NCBI RefSeq assembly: GCF_000215995.1
Contig: NC_015680.1
Coordinates: 1,178,001-1,242,000 of the forward strand
Source: Pyrococcus yayanosii CH1
Lineage (GTDB): Archaea; Methanobacteriota_B; Thermococci; Thermococcales; Thermococcaceae
Length of the DNA: 64,000 nt
Direction of reading: 5' to 3'
The notes below the pieces were generated by a model. It made no database searches, was not told the DNA's origin, and saw only the letters and a program-made list of their open reading frames with translations. Positions 52,983 through 64,000 of this stretch are shown one piece after another. Numbering within the stretch: position 1 is the first letter of the stretch; every line of letters begins with the position of its first letter. The position numbers and the translations under genes were made by a program.

Positions 52983-53129
52983 TGACAGATTTGCTTCGAT
53001 TTTCAAGTCTCTCCCACGTTCTTCCTTATTTTTGCCATTGACTCACTTTCAATGGGTCATCACAGAAAAGAACTGCCCAAAGTTGTTTCCTCTTTCGGTT
53101 TACCATTTCAGTAGTAATCTCTTGTCAGG

Positions 53130-53460
53130 TGTGTTCGTTTGGAAGTGGGAGGAGCTCGTGCTCGCTTGGGGAGTGTGAGGAGCAGGTACTGGAGTTCGAG
53201 GGGTTCGCGCGGTTAATTAAGCCTTTGTTTTTGGTTTTGATTGCGGGCTCGGGCTTATTTTTGACCAATTGGTTTTCGATTTCCAAAAATCCAAAATTTG
53301 GCACTCTAATAGGATTATTAATGAAATTCAGGTTCATGCGAGCTTTTTCATTTTCGGGCCAGATTTATAAGCGAAGTGCAGTGCCACCAATTCCGAGGAA
53401 AAACCTTAAATACACAATCCGAAAAGCTACTATTTGAAGAACAAGAAAAATAAACCCAGG
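53130..53460 (+). promoter_or_regulatory. CRISPR leader
   Basis: A/T-rich stretch directly before repeat 1, with a TATA-like CCTTAAATAC at 53404-53413 about 50 nt before the first repeat. The array degenerates at its far (right) end, and the 3' end of each repeat supplies the GTGGAAAG tag, so transcription runs left to right. The open frame at 53129-53437 is inside this leader and is not convincing as a gene. Confidence 0.75.
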
Positions 53461-55114
53461 GTTTCCGTAGAACGTAGTCGTGTGGAAAGTCAGTCAACCA
53501 CGCAAATCACCGAAAATATTCAGCCAACGTTTCCGTAGAACGTAGTCGTGTGGAAAGAAGATTTTTGTGAACCCCTTTCGTCTTTTTACTATTGCAGTTT
53601 CCGTAGAACGTAGTCGTGTGGAAAGATAATATGTTTGCGATGTTCACGCCGTTTATTTCCACGTGTTTCCGTAGAACGTAGTCGTGTGGAAAGCGTACCC
53701 CTCCTCTGGGTACGCGTAGAATTCTACTGCGTTTCCGTAGAACGTAGTCGTGTGGAAAGAGATTTGGCCGGCTGAGCTGAGACTGAGCTGAGATTTGGCC
53801 CGAGGGTTTCCGTAGAACGTAGTCGTGTGGAAAGGACTGCCACTTAGCAGTACCAGCTGCCTTCACACCCTTGGTTTCCGTAGAACGTAGTCGTGTGGAA
53901 AGGTTTTGTTCTTAAAACAAAAACAAGGTTGCTTTTGTTTCCGTAGAACGTAGTCGTGTGGAAAGTTCTTTTGCTTCTGCTGAATTTTTGCTCCTCTGGA
54001 GGTTTCCGTAGAACGTAGTCGTGTGGAAAGTGCCCCAGCGCTCCGCTTCCTCAAAAACGAGCTCCGCGTGTTTCCGTAGAACGTAGTCGTGTGGAAAGAA
54101 TGTCATCAATGAGTGTGTTCGTATCGCTGTCGCTCCCGTTTCCGTAGAACGTAGTCGTGTGGAAAGTAGTATAATGAGAATGGTGCGGAGGTGTGGAAGG
54201 ATGAGAGGTTTCCGTAGAACGTAGTCGTGTGGAAAGTGGATTTCACTTGTTCTAACTGCTGGTAAAGCTCTTGTTTCCGTAGAACGTAGTCGTGTGGAAA
54301 GATTGATAGAGTGTTATCGCCAGTCAAGTCAATTGGGGTTTCCGTAGAACGTAGTCGTGTGGAAAGAGGCACTTGTTCAGGCTTGCCGTTCTCATCAAAA
54401 GTCCAGTTTCCGTAGAACGTAGTCGTGTGGAAAGCTTCTCTAACCCTCCTGCTTTTTTGAACAATGTTCGGGCGTTTCCGTAGAACGTAGTCGTGTGGAA
54501 AGCCTTCTCGCACCAGCCTCTCTAGCGTGCTTCTAAATACGTTTCCGTAGAACGTAGTCGTGTGGAAAGCACTATACCCATCTGGATATTCCCCAACGAA
54601 TTCCTCCTGTTTCCGTAGAACGTAGTCGTGTGGAAAGAATTCGGAAGAATAGAAATCCACGTTAAAAAGGTAAAAGTTTCCGTAGAACGTAGTCGTGTGG
54701 AAAGTGGAAAGGGCTCGCCGACGCCACCATAGACACCGCCTGGAAGAGGTTTCCGTAGAACGTAATCGTGTGGAAAGACGGAGTATCTCATTGCAATGAT
54801 TTCTAAAATCTTCATGTTTCCGTAGAACGTAATCGTGTGGAAAGTTCGAGTTGAAAATCTTCTGCACGAACTTCGTCTTTGATAGTTTCCGTAGAACGTA
54901 ATCGTGTGGAAAGGATGAGGGCGTCCTGGGCCCGGGTCACCCCCGCCCGTTGAGTTTCCGTAGAACGTAATCGTGTGGAAAGACGAAGACAAAGTATCTC
55001 TCTGGGTTCTCTAGTATCTCTGTTTCCGTAGAACGTAATCGTGTGGAAAGCCGAATACCTTAAAGCAACTAGTTCAACTATTTTCGTTTCCGTAGAACGC
55101 AATCGTGTGGGAAG
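53461..55114 (+). CRISPR. CRISPR array, 25 repeats and 24 spacers
   Basis: The repeat is 29 bp, beginning GTTTCCGTAGAACGT and ending CGTGTGGAAAG, repeated with 34-46-nt spacers. Repeats 1-19 have AGTCG in the middle, repeats 20-24 (from 54749) have AATCG, and the last, at 55086-55114, has further changes (AACGCAATCG and GTGGGAAG). It belongs to the Thermococcales repeat group ending in GGAAAG, used by type I and III systems. No cas operon is within the window; a cas6-like gene is at 38595. The peptides encoded across the repeats are not real proteins. Confidence 0.99.
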
Positions 55115-60310: not shown

Positions 60311-61186
60311 TTGGTGCGGTGGCCGGGATTTGAACCCGGGTCGCCGGCTCGGAAGGCGGGGGATTTCGCTGGATTGTGGGTCTCTCTTGAAGAGCAGTTT
60401 TTGGAGTGGCTCTCTGGACAAGTAAAGGCTGGAAAACTTTCTGAAGAAACGGCTGCAGAATATACCAGAGCTCTGAAAAAGTTCTTTGACAAGTATAGCC
60501 CACATTCAGTCGAGGAACTTGAGAGTGCCCTTACCAAGGAGAATTATAAGCGTCATCTATGTAAGGCACTCAGAAAGTTTGTGCAGTTCTTGAAGAAGCA
60601 GAAAATAATTGATCCAGTTTTTGCCGAAGAACTGAAGGAATCAATACCGATTAAGCCGACAAAGGAAAGTGAAGTTAGGATATCAACTGAGGAGCTATTG
60701 GAGGCTTGGGAGTATCACAAGAGACATTCTGATGAAGTTACTCGGCTTTTCTTCAAAATTCTCGTGTTCAGTGGAGCAAGGCTGAGAACTGTTCACAAGA
60801 TGCTAACTCAGTTTGATGAGAGGAGACTCTACATCTTGCCAAACTATCCCAATATTGCAAAATATGCTCTTATGGAAAGGCACGGGACAAAGGCATCTCT
60901 TTACATTTATATGCCTGCCGAGCTTGTCAATGAAATTAAGCCAGTCAAAATTAAGGAGGCAACAATTAGGAAACGCTTGGAATATGGAAGAGTGAATGCT
61001 TCGACAATAAGAAAATGGCATGCAACGTTTCTCTCAATGCAAGGTATAAAGGATCACGTAATAAATTACATCCAAAGTAGAGTACCAAGAGCGATTCTGG
61101 AGAAACACTATCTGGATTTGGAATTAGAGGCAGACGAGGCTTATTCTCGGGTGGTTGATGAGTTGAAGAAGGTGTTGGAGGGTTAG
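60311..61186 (+). CDS. int: SSV-type integrase, C-terminal part (intC)
   Basis: Tyrosine recombinase of archaeal viruses and plasmids. The frame passes through the tRNA half (residues 1-16 come from att) and continues with the core-binding region WLSGQVKAGKLSEETAAEYT and the catalytic domain. The catalytic Arg lies in FSGARLRTVHKML, the R-x-x-H-like patch in STIRKWHATFLSM and the nucleophile Tyr in EKHYLDLELEA. The N-terminal piece (intN) is separated by integration and lies at the other end. TTG at 60311 is only a formal start. Its DNA is A/T-rich. Confidence 0.88.
   Translation: MVRWPGFEPGSPARKAGDFAGLWVSLEEQFLEWLSGQVKAGKLSEETAAEYTRALKKFFDKYSPHSVEELESALTKENYKRHLCKALRKFVQFLKKQKIIDPVFAEELKESIPIKPTKESEVRISTEELLEAWEYHKRHSDEVTRLFFKILVFSGARLRTVHKMLTQFDERRLYILPNYPNIAKYALMERHGTKASLYIYMPAELVNEIKPVKIKEATIRKRLEYGRVNASTIRKWHATFLSMQGIKDHVINYIQSRVPRAILEKHYLDLELEADEAYSRVVDELKKVLEG
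60312..60357 (-). other. att site: 3' half of tRNA-Gly(UCC)
   Basis: Read on the minus strand, CTTCCGA (anticodon loop, UCC), GCCGG, the T arm CCGGGTTCAAATCCCGG, CCACCGC, A and CCA give the 3' half of tRNA-Gly. Beyond 60357 the match stops (CCCGC instead of CCGGC) and no D arm follows. So only the attachment core is here. The complete gene should be at the other end of the integrated element. Confidence 0.85.
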
Positions 61187-61188
61187 CA

Positions 61189-61332
61189 ATGGAGTTTTTG
61201 CTTAGGATTGTCTTCGTGTTTTTTGGTTTTGTTCTTGCGCTCGTGATGGGTTCTTTGTTTTATTTCGAGCTTAGCTGGTGGTTGGAGAGGAGAAAGTGGA
61301 TGAATAAATATGAAAAGACTTTAAGGAGGTGA
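61189..61332 (+). CDS. Small single-span membrane protein of the element
   Basis: 47 residues: FLLRIVFVFFGFVLALVMGS is a membrane helix, followed by an aromatic and basic tail (WWLERRKWMNKYEK). GGAGGG lies before the ATG, which overlaps nothing and begins 3 nt after the integrase stop. The function is unknown. Confidence 0.65.
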   Translation: MEFLLRIVFVFFGFVLALVMGSLFYFELSWWLERRKWMNKYEKTLRR

Positions 61333-61339
61333 GTGGAGG

Positions 61340-61507
61340 ATGGCCCGGGAAAAGCTAAATGGTTCTGGTGCTTTTGTTTGGTCTGTTAGCATCGATAAGG
61401 AAACACTAAGGATGATTAAGAGGCTTGCAAAGGAGACTGGAGTGAACAACCAGTCGGCGGTGGTTAGGATGGCAATTAGAGAGCTCTACAAGAAAATCAT
61501 CGGATAA
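61340..61507 (+). CDS. Ribbon-helix-helix (CopG/Arc-like) DNA-binding protein
   Basis: 55 residues. A short strand, FVWSVSIDKETLRMI, is followed by two helices (KRLAKETGVNNQSAVVRMAI), the ribbon-helix-helix pattern. It is probably a repressor or copy-control protein of the element. GGTGAGTGGAGG lies before the ATG. The gap after it (61508-61623) carries a promoter-like TTCTTAAATATC. Confidence 0.8.
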   Translation: MAREKLNGSGAFVWSVSIDKETLRMIKRLAKETGVNNQSAVVRMAIRELYKKIIG

Positions 61508-61623
61508 ATTCTGCATTTTTTATTTAATCTCTATCTAAGCATTCCTCAGCCCTTTTCTAATATTCTTAAATATCAGATGCATACTCTCTGTTTTAGGTTG
61601 TCTTGGGTCCCGGGGGCGATAGT

Positions 61624-61791
61624 ATGAATTCTGTGGAAAAGCTCGAAAAGAGGCTTAGGAAGTTGCGGAAGAGGAAGGCAAGGCTTGAGCAGGAGTATCA
61701 CAGGATTCTTGAGGAAAAGATTCGGGTTGAAAGAGAATTGAAGCAGGTTCTTGAGGATTTGAGGAGGGCAAGGCAGGTGGCGGTTGCATGA
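61624..61791 (+). CDS. Short coiled-coil protein of the element
   Basis: 55 residues, nearly all a charged helix (LEKRLRKLRKRKARLEQEYH, then RILEEKIRVERELKQVLEDL). It is probably dimeric. The ATG at 61624 has GGGGGCGAT before it. It overlaps the next gene by 4 nt (GCATGA), so they are coupled. The function is unknown. Confidence 0.65.
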   Translation: MNSVEKLEKRLRKLRKRKARLEQEYHRILEEKIRVERELKQVLEDLRRARQVAVA

Positions 61792-62147
61792 ACACAAACT
61801 CAGCAATTCAACTGCTGATTTTTGTTCTGATAGCTGGCTTTTTTGCAAAAACTGCATGGGGGATGATAACAAAGGAGGCAGCATTCTTTGGGGCTTTGGC
61901 TGGAATCACAATGCACTGGCTCTTGACAAACAAGGGGAACAAAAACGTTGTTTACATAAGACCACTTTCGGCGGGCTGGCGAGTGCTAATTTACGACATC
62001 TTGCTGTGCACGTTCTTGATCTCATTAGCACAGCAGGCTGGAAGCTTTTCTGCGCTCTTTGACGCTCTGAAGAACAACGTTCAGAATCTTGCACTCCTCT
62101 TGAGCTTGATTGGTGGAATTGGAATTGACTACAGTGTGGGAGGGTAA
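61788..62147 (+). CDS. Three-to-four-span membrane protein of the element
   Basis: 119 residues with spans at AIQLLIFVLIAGFFAKTAWG, EAAFFGALAGITMHWLL, LIYDILLCTFLISLAQQAG and NLALLLSLIGGIGIDYSVG. It has no recognised family. It comes just before the giant secreted protein and may act with it in the envelope or in secretion. Confidence 0.7.
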   Translation: MNTNSAIQLLIFVLIAGFFAKTAWGMITKEAAFFGALAGITMHWLLTNKGNKNVVYIRPLSAGWRVLIYDILLCTFLISLAQQAGSFSALFDALKNNVQNLALLLSLIGGIGIDYSVGG

Positions 62148-62152
62148 GGGAG

Positions 62153-64000
62153 ATGAGAAGGGCGTTAAGCGTTTTATTTAGTTTATTGTTGCTTTTTGGC
62201 ACTCTAACAGTAGGGACGGGCACGGTAAAGGCTGGGGGGACTTATGTTATTTATTACACTATTGAACATTCTTTCAATGTAAACGCTTTGGATAGCACGT
62301 GGACGTTTGATAATAATACTGGATTTTACACTAAAGACGTAACGTCGTTGGTTAACTGTTCGGCATTTGCACGACAGATAACAGTCGTTGCGGAGGTTAG
62401 CAGCTCTGCTTTAGTGCTTGAGTTTTCAGCTAATACGAAAGAGGACATTCTCAGAATATTCATGCCAGCGTCTCCGAACCTTGGTGGTTCAGTAACGACA
62501 TATAAGCCGCTTTTTGAAGAGTATGCGTCTCAAGTCATAGCTGACCTTTACAATGCGGGAGTTGTTAATGACTTAGGGATATACCAGAACGGTGTATTAT
62601 CGTCAGATAATCCCGAGCTAACAAAAACATGGAATGTAATTTATATGTATGGTATCAGCGGGCACGATGGAGTGATTTTTAAGACGTTGGGCTTTAATTC
62701 AACTGGAACGACGACTATTCTATTAGCAACACAGAATAATGGGGAAAATGCGGCGTCTTATGCAGTGTTTGATGGTGTAAAATATAATAATAATGCCTAT
62801 GTGTTGAAAACTGGTGTTCTGGAAGGTGCCCACGAGGCGAAAGTAGGAGCTTCGATAATGTATGGGATAAGCAGGTGGGCGTATTTGTATGTTATTTTTG
62901 ACGGTTCTTATTCTAAGACTTCGTGGAGTAATGCGATTGATGGAGATACGGGGCCGGACTTCGAAGGGGCTTTTAGCGTGTCTCCGCCTGCATTTCTTGT
63001 TACTTTCAGCGTTAAGGACGCTCTAACTGGCCAGCCCCTGAGCGGGGTAACGGTGAAAGAAGGCTCTAATGTCCTCGGCACAATTGACGACGGCGGGACG
63101 CTTGAACTAACGAAGGGCACTCATACTTTGACTTTTGAGAAAAGCGGATATTGGAGCACTACTTTGACAATTGACGTTCAGAGCGATATGAGCGTTAGCG
63201 TTGAAATGTATCCTTCTTCAACAGCGTTCAAGTTCCTGAACTTCCCAAGCGATATTCAAGTCTATGAGAACACGATTTACACGCTCACCTTCACCCTCTT
63301 CCCCATCGACACTTCCGCGACCTACAACACTTATCTCTCGATTTCGGGCCTCTCTGACATCATAGAAGTCAGAAAAGACGGCTCTCTCATCTCTCCCGAG
63401 GGCGGGAAGTACTACCTCGGCGACATCACCTCACCTGTCCAGGTCAGCATCAAGTTCAAGGCCGGCGCGGTCGGCACTCACGGGTTCACAATTACGCTCA
63501 CGAGCAACGACGCGATAATGAGCCAGACCTACACGACGACGAAACAGGTAACCTACACCGTCGAGCCGCTCCCGTTCAGCGTCCAGATGCCAAACGAGTG
63601 GCAGGTGGGCACGAACGAGCTGAGAATCAGTGAGAGCAGTGGGCAGAGCTACCTAATCACGGCTGTACTCAAAGATTCAAGCGGGAATGAAGTCTGGTCT
63701 GACAGCTACGCTTTCAGCCCGTACGAGGCGCACACTTTCAGCATCAACGTCCCGAGCGAGGGCTCCTACACGCTCGAACTCCAGTTCAATGGCCAGACAG
63801 CAGTCTATTCCGTCCAGGTGAATCCTGCCATCACCCTCGTTACCAAGACCCTTACCGTCTCTGAGGGCGGCGAGGGAGTCATCACGCTCCACTTCAAGAA
63901 CCCGAGCTCCAGCGTGCAGTACTACACGATTGTCGTCAGCGGTGGCTTCCTGCCGAAGGATATTAACCAGAGCATTTCAGTTGCTCCGCTTACTGAGAAA
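62153..64000 (+). CDS. Giant secreted protein of the element (runs off the window)
   Basis: At least 616 codons with no stop up to base 64000. A signal peptide (ALSVLFSLLLLFGTLTVGTG) starts it. The first 280 or so residues are a beta-rich domain (NALDSTWTFDNNTGFYTK and on). A PEGA/carboxypeptidase-regulatory-like repeat follows (LTGQPLSGVTVKEGSNVLGT, LELTKGTHTLTFEKSGYWST). Then come further immunoglobulin-like modules. It is probably a virion or cell-surface protein. GGTAAGGGAG precedes the ATG. The DNA changes from A/T-rich to G/C-rich near 63200. Confidence 0.8.
   Translation, partial: MRRALSVLFSLLLLFGTLTVGTGTVKAGGTYVIYYTIEHSFNVNALDSTWTFDNNTGFYTKDVTSLVNCSAFARQITVVAEVSSSALVLEFSANTKEDILRIFMPASPNLGGSVTTYKPLFEEYASQVIADLYNAGVVNDLGIYQNGVLSSDNPELTKTWNVIYMYGISGHDGVIFKTLGFNSTGTTTILLATQNNGENAASYAVFDGVKYNNNAYVLKTGVLEGAHEAKVGASIMYGISRWAYLYVIFDGSYSKTSWSNAIDGDTGPDFEGAFSVSPPAFLVTFSVKDALTGQPLSGVTVKEGSNVLGTIDDGGTLELTKGTHTLTFEKSGYWSTTLTIDVQSDMSVSVEMYPSSTAFKFLNFPSDIQVYENTIYTLTFTLFPIDTSATYNTYLSISGLSDIIEVRKDGSLISPEGGKYYLGDITSPVQVSIKFKAGAVGTHGFTITLTSNDAIMSQTYTTTKQVTYTVEPLPFSVQMPNEWQVGTNELRISESSGQSYLITAVLKDSSGNEVWSDSYAFSPYEAHTFSINVPSEGSYTLELQFNGQTAVYSVQVNPAITLVTKTLTVSEGGEGVITLHFKNPSSSVQYYTIVVSGGFLPKDINQSISVAPLTEK

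Follow-up and report, generated by a model that had tools for sequence, protein, structure and literature searches.

Two spacers of a CRISPR array in Pyrococcus yayanosii CH1 very probably derive from a single gene start sampled in two divergent mobile elements

Introduction

In primed adaptation, the new spacers of a CRISPR array come from the element already targeted, in the vicinity of the old site. The targeting of related elements by several spacers has been catalogued for Thermococcales (PMC12934983) and for pT26-2 plasmids (PMC6972569); in the former survey, which assigns spacers to contigs by DNA similarity (at least 90% identity), a targeted contig had 14 matching spacers on average. 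The same paper cites histone-directed acquisition in a model archaeon (PMC12934983).

Here we describe two spacers, B20 and B24, of array B of Pyrococcus yayanosii CH1. Array B lies in the window, i.e., the whole 64,000-nt stretch of DNA that was analysed, spanning bases 1,178,001-1,242,000 of a single-contig genome, and coordinates given without a prefix are positions in it. The original prediction held that these two spacers encode homologous peptides in the same register and look like the result of one site being sampled twice, with the same PAM, in divergent versions of a virus or plasmid gene. We find that the observation is real and that its main interpretation is probably right.

Results

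Array B carries repeats of a type I-B class

Array B has the make-up of a CRISPR array: its near-identical repeats are regularly spaced, its spacers are unique, and its distal repeat is degenerate. Its parts are as follows.

53461-55114, forward strand: CRISPR array B, with 25 repeats of 29 nt and 24 spacers; repeat unit GTTTCCGTAGAACGTAGTCGTGTGGAAAG and variants, 29 nt
55086-55114: degenerate terminal repeat, at the distal end
53000-53460, forward strand: presumed leader side
54749-55050, forward strand: oldest block, distal to the leader, in which the repeats carry the variant GTAATCG; it contains B20 to B23 and adjoins B24

Because the degenerate last repeat lies at the right end, the leader is placed on the left. 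Spacer lengths range from 34 to 46 nt. The variant GTAATCG is present in the five repeats preceding B20 to B24, as it is in array A, while GTAGTCG is present in the 19 leader-proximal repeats; this substitution delimits an old block (54749-55114) that contains both B20 and B24.

The repeats are of the same class as those of array C (GTTTCCGTAGAACGGAATCGTGTGGAAAG), which sits in the same genome between cas8b/cas7b/cas5 and cas1/cas4/cas3, in a complete type I-B operon; it is thus through array C that the repeat class of array B is linked to type I-B. Like the type I-B array of Pyrococcus, array B has 29-nt repeats of the class adjoining cas8b-cas7-cas5-cas1-cas4-cas3; unlike it, array B is solitary and located approximately 40 kb from the type I-B operon, and no cas genes were seen among the immediate neighbours of array B tested. 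Further along the window, 60311-64000 represents the left part of an integrated plasmid of the pT26-2 family, PyaCH1_IP16 (1,238,312-1,255,830 in Pyrococcus yayanosii CH1; PMC6972569), which includes an archaeal phage integrase at about 60311-61186.

B20 and B24 encode related peptides

54778-54815, reverse strand: spacer B20, 38 nt, encoding MKILEIIAMRYS(V), the putative first codons of a gene
55051-55085, reverse strand: spacer B24, 35 nt, encoding (xxG)KIVELVALRYS, homologous to B20

The positions and sequences originally given for the two spacers are correct; the reverse complements read ATGAAGATTTTAGAAATCATTGCAATGAGATACTCCGT for B20 and GAAAATAGTTGAACTAGTTGCTTTAAGGTATTCGG for B24. The homology of the encoded peptides was confirmed as well, with seven of 11 residues identical and the other four conservative (KILEIIAMRYS vs. 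KIVELVALRYS). The ungapped BLOSUM62 score of these 11-mers is 42, as compared to 28 for the runner-up pair among the 24 spacers of array B. At the DNA level, 20 of 33 nt (61%) are identical, and mismatches fall on codon positions 1, 2, and 3 in a ratio of 4/0/9 (11 sites each), so that divergence is concentrated at synonymous positions; this is the pattern of diverging coding DNA under purifying selection, and it is not independent of the choice of pairs by peptide similarity.

Two details of the original prediction did not hold. The terminal residues of its peptides (V in B20, A in B24) are only partly encoded by the spacers, B20 supplying GT and B24 supplying G; these codons are finished by repeat bases and therefore provide no evidence for homology. 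The alignment also does not begin at the same distance from the repeat, since, in the crRNA sense, the conserved block starts 2 nt after the repeat in B20 and 1 nt after it in B24. The protospacer ends are consequently offset by 1 nt and the opposite ends by 2 nt; the two spacers share the strand and a near-identical, rather than identical, register.

An overlapping spacer exposes a putative gene start

The genome contains seven arrays of two repeat classes, with a total of 133 spacers. The end of B20 overlaps spacer G2, from another array, by 11 nt. Four pairs show end-to-end overlaps of at least 9 nt, i.e., B12/D25 (30 nt), A24/D7 (15 nt), D10/G3 (14 nt, on opposite strands), and B20/G2 (11 nt); when the spacer sets were shuffled, overlaps at this threshold averaged 0.12, and none of at least 11 nt occurred in 60 trials.

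Joined on the minus strand, B20 and G2 read GACAAAAAGAAGGGAGGTGGTGGGAGATGAAGATTTTAGAAATC..., and the join contains GGGAGGTGGTGGGAG-ATG, in which a Shine-Dalgarno sequence, GGAGGTG, is located 7 nt ahead of the ATG that opens the reverse complement of B20. An upstream frame terminates as ...DKKKGGGGR, its TGA stop overlapping this ATG. Because the Shine-Dalgarno sequence stands 7 nt before its initial ATG, B20 can be read as the first codons of a gene, in the very frame that the original prediction had picked on other grounds; the GGAGGTG of G2 thus supports the frame as that of a real gene, if indirectly. In B24, the codon preceding K ends in G, which is compatible with a start codon without proving one; B24 too may begin at a start codon. 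RNA folding of the B20/G2 tile revealed nothing remarkable. Approximately 20 nt of the tile, all within G2, also occur at the mre11/rad50 junction in several Thermococcus genomes; as the proteins diverge at once, we rejected this junction as a source and read the resemblance as convergence of a ribosome-binding site and an MKI start.

Could the pair have arisen by chance?

That two AT-rich spacers coincidentally encode similar hydrophobic peptides is quite unlikely. We used two nulls for the score of 42, namely random fragments of the same window and shuffles of B20 and B24 themselves. A score of at least 42 was reached by nine of 960,000 random fragment pairs and by none of 480,000 shuffles, placing the peptide similarity above chance; in those 480,000 trials, the shuffles did not reach a score of 40 either. 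The fragment null (~1e-5 per pair) translates into about 0.003 expected pairs for the 276 pairs of array B and into about 0.08 when all 8,256 spacer pairs in the genome are considered, and this genome-wide expectation is, by itself, not negligible. The DNA identity of 20/33 alone (P ~1e-4, given the register) is likewise unremarkable once the search over pairs and offsets is considered. Against coincidence, however, stand the complete absence of mismatches at codon position 2 along with nine at position 3, the location of both spacers on the same strand in nearly the same register, and the Shine-Dalgarno sequence and ATG exposed by G2, which support the frame independently.

Other targets appear to have been sampled repeatedly

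Several further spacers of the genome overlap or resemble each other in the peptides that they encode.

54237-54272, reverse strand: spacer B12, encoding ELYQQLEQVKS; 30 identical nt overlap D25, shifted by 6 nt
L042:6758-6795, L042:5545-5582, and L009:5013-5050: spacers D25, D7, and A24, respectively, which form a tile with B12
53760-53805, forward strand: spacer B5, which has CGGCTGAGCTGA and a similar layout in common with spacer E2 of another array
L010:4388-4429, L042:6353-6390, and within L049: spacers C12, D19, and E11, respectively

Together, B12, D25, A24, and D7, which come from three arrays of two repeat classes, cover 84 bp of a single coding stretch (VTSDPEEFREIQRQLKELYQQLEQVKS, minus strand). 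This stretch is coiled-coil-like, and A24 differs from D25 and B12 at a few bases, as if taken from relatives. C12, D19, and E11, from three arrays, encode on their minus strands the related, KIVSFF-like peptides RWNEARKIVSFF, WEEVKKLSTFFT, and KEIVSFFTEEPE, and probably represent another repeatedly sampled gene. Other peptide look-alikes include E9 and F15 (EEELFE-) as well as D28 and F14 (ELLTEFVGIPG and EILVEAIGVPG). Overall, ten peptide pairs scored at least 36, as compared to 0.75 expected under the genomic null, some of the ten being overlapping or GC-rich non-coding spacers. Taken together, the overlapping and peptide-similar spacers suggest that the strain met the same element families repeatedly, with not each pair established individually.

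Two observations concern the arrays themselves. Spacers 4-7 of array D (genome ~693,344-693,581; L042:5345-5582) recur unchanged, in order and in ordinal position, as spacers 4-7 of array F (~556,818-557,055; L050), 136 kb away, while spacers 1-3 and those from 8 onward differ; this block would represent recombination or gene conversion between arrays. Array D adjoins genes for CARF-PIN, CARF-HEPN (Csx1), and Cmr1, a type III-B module with signalling effectors (L042:7715-11834; genome ~695,700-699,800). In addition, the GC-rich palindromic spacers D2, D6, and D26 (L042) and G9 (L051) have a common layout, CGGGG..TGA..CGGGCGGG.AATCCGCCCC; their source was apparently a set of related non-coding hairpins in a single type of element.

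Searches for the target and the PAM

No protospacer of B20 or B24 was found in 94 Thermococcaceae genomes, IMG/VR, GTDB contigs, INPHARED, or PLSDB. A protein motif search, proposed along with the original prediction, was carried out in the 94 Thermococcaceae genomes with KI[LV]E[IL][IV]A[ML]RYS and looser forms, and only the two spacers themselves matched; a motif scan of GTDB contigs yielded no match. BLAST searches of phage and plasmid records with the spacers and tiles gave no credible match, and when all spacers were compared at the peptide level with 11 thermococcal plasmids or integrated elements, they performed no better than shuffled spacers; in that scan, F15 (EEELFEIFVEY) aligned in frame with a gene of a Thermococcus profundus plasmid. 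Two other repeatedly sampled motifs had no convincing match in IMG/VR.

Every target candidate was out of frame, non-coding, or in an unrelated gene. Those with two to three mismatches were judged to be chance matches and include L018, an Hjc-resolvase-like start (MRYRRG) after a ribosome-binding site, L017 and L019, which are short and stop-bounded, and unrelated genes. The IMG/VR candidates L020, L021, and L052 were rejected because they were out of frame or lay in a stop-bounded fragment of contigs from bacterial phages, and weak matches of B21, B23, and B11 in relatives were attributed to chance. Even with more than 1,100 vent metagenomes surveyed, only 33% of Thermococcales spacers could be assigned a protospacer (PMC12934983); missing protospacers are thus no strong evidence against a viral origin.

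The ends of B20 and B24 lie 1 nt apart, and the PAM-defined site is therefore not identical in the two. CCN is known as a PAM in Pyrococcus. As a prediction, a CCN PAM is possible for both spacers if the B20 element continues RYS as V-G (GTN GGN) and if, in the B24 element, RYS is followed by GNG and then by a codon whose first base is G.

Discussion

Two divergent members of one element family as the likely source

The peptide score and its nulls, the codon-position pattern, and the overlap with G2 lend good support to the proposal that one site was sampled twice, in divergent versions of a single gene. Judging from these sequences, we consider it very probable that B20 and B24 were acquired separately, each at the beginning of the same gene, from two divergent members of a single virus or plasmid family; we infer that the target is a mobile element and that the acquisitions were separate events. 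Counting against this reading are the lack of a protospacer in the collections searched, the 1-nt offset of the ends, and the genome-wide expectation of ~0.08 pairs.

Type I-B adaptation would have taken a spacer at the gene start (first dozen codons) of one element and, on another encounter, array B would have stored the same place from a divergent relative. A spacer with approximately 40% mismatch to its target should not protect. When the diverged relative arrived, the older spacer, being mismatched to that extent, would have given no protection, and the same site, with a suitable PAM, may therefore have been sampled again.

It is very unlikely that the two spacers come instead from paralogous genes, or repeated gene copies, of a single element. 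The sequence alone is compatible with such an origin, and B20 and B24 are only four spacers apart in the same old block; however, nothing points to paralogues, and for the tile formed by B12/D25 and A24, the best reading is that related elements carry diverged forms of one stretch. That one spacer is a duplicate of the other, drifted by mutation within the array, is hardly conceivable, since, although B20 and B24 lie within five repeat units and arrays recombine in this genome (as in the four-spacer block common to arrays D and F), in-array drift has no reason to spare position 2 (0/11) and hit position 3 (9/11), the flanking repeats differ far less than the spacers, and the spacers differ in length (38 vs. 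35 nt).

Beyond separate acquisition from two relatives, the resampling of one gene's start and of an 84-bp stretch of another by different arrays, from divergent elements, might be taken to reflect strongly site-directed adaptation, which we regard as unlikely. Its cause would then be a conserved feature of the DNA (the density of PAMs, the edge of a nucleosome, or a free end), and not the sampling of a frequent invader at random. If such a site preference is true, Pyrococcus arrays could be used to test whether acquisition returns to fixed positions.

Comparison with known cases of repeated acquisition

Comparing the peptides encoded by spacers within one genome can expose common targets that are missed by DNA matching, and overlapping spacers can expose the gene start of an unseen element. 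As in primed or hotspot acquisition, B20 and B24 would represent repeat acquisitions at or beside one site; in contrast to priming, the second acquisition would have hit the homologous site of a divergent element. As in the catalogues of Thermococcales and pT26-2 targets (PMC12934983; PMC6972569), one host carries several spacers against one element family; unlike in those DNA-matching surveys, B20 and B24 share only 61% of their DNA, their common site is visible in the peptide only, and no contig was found. The pair neatly illustrates a known phenomenon, the ordinary repeated immunisation against an element family, and not a new system.
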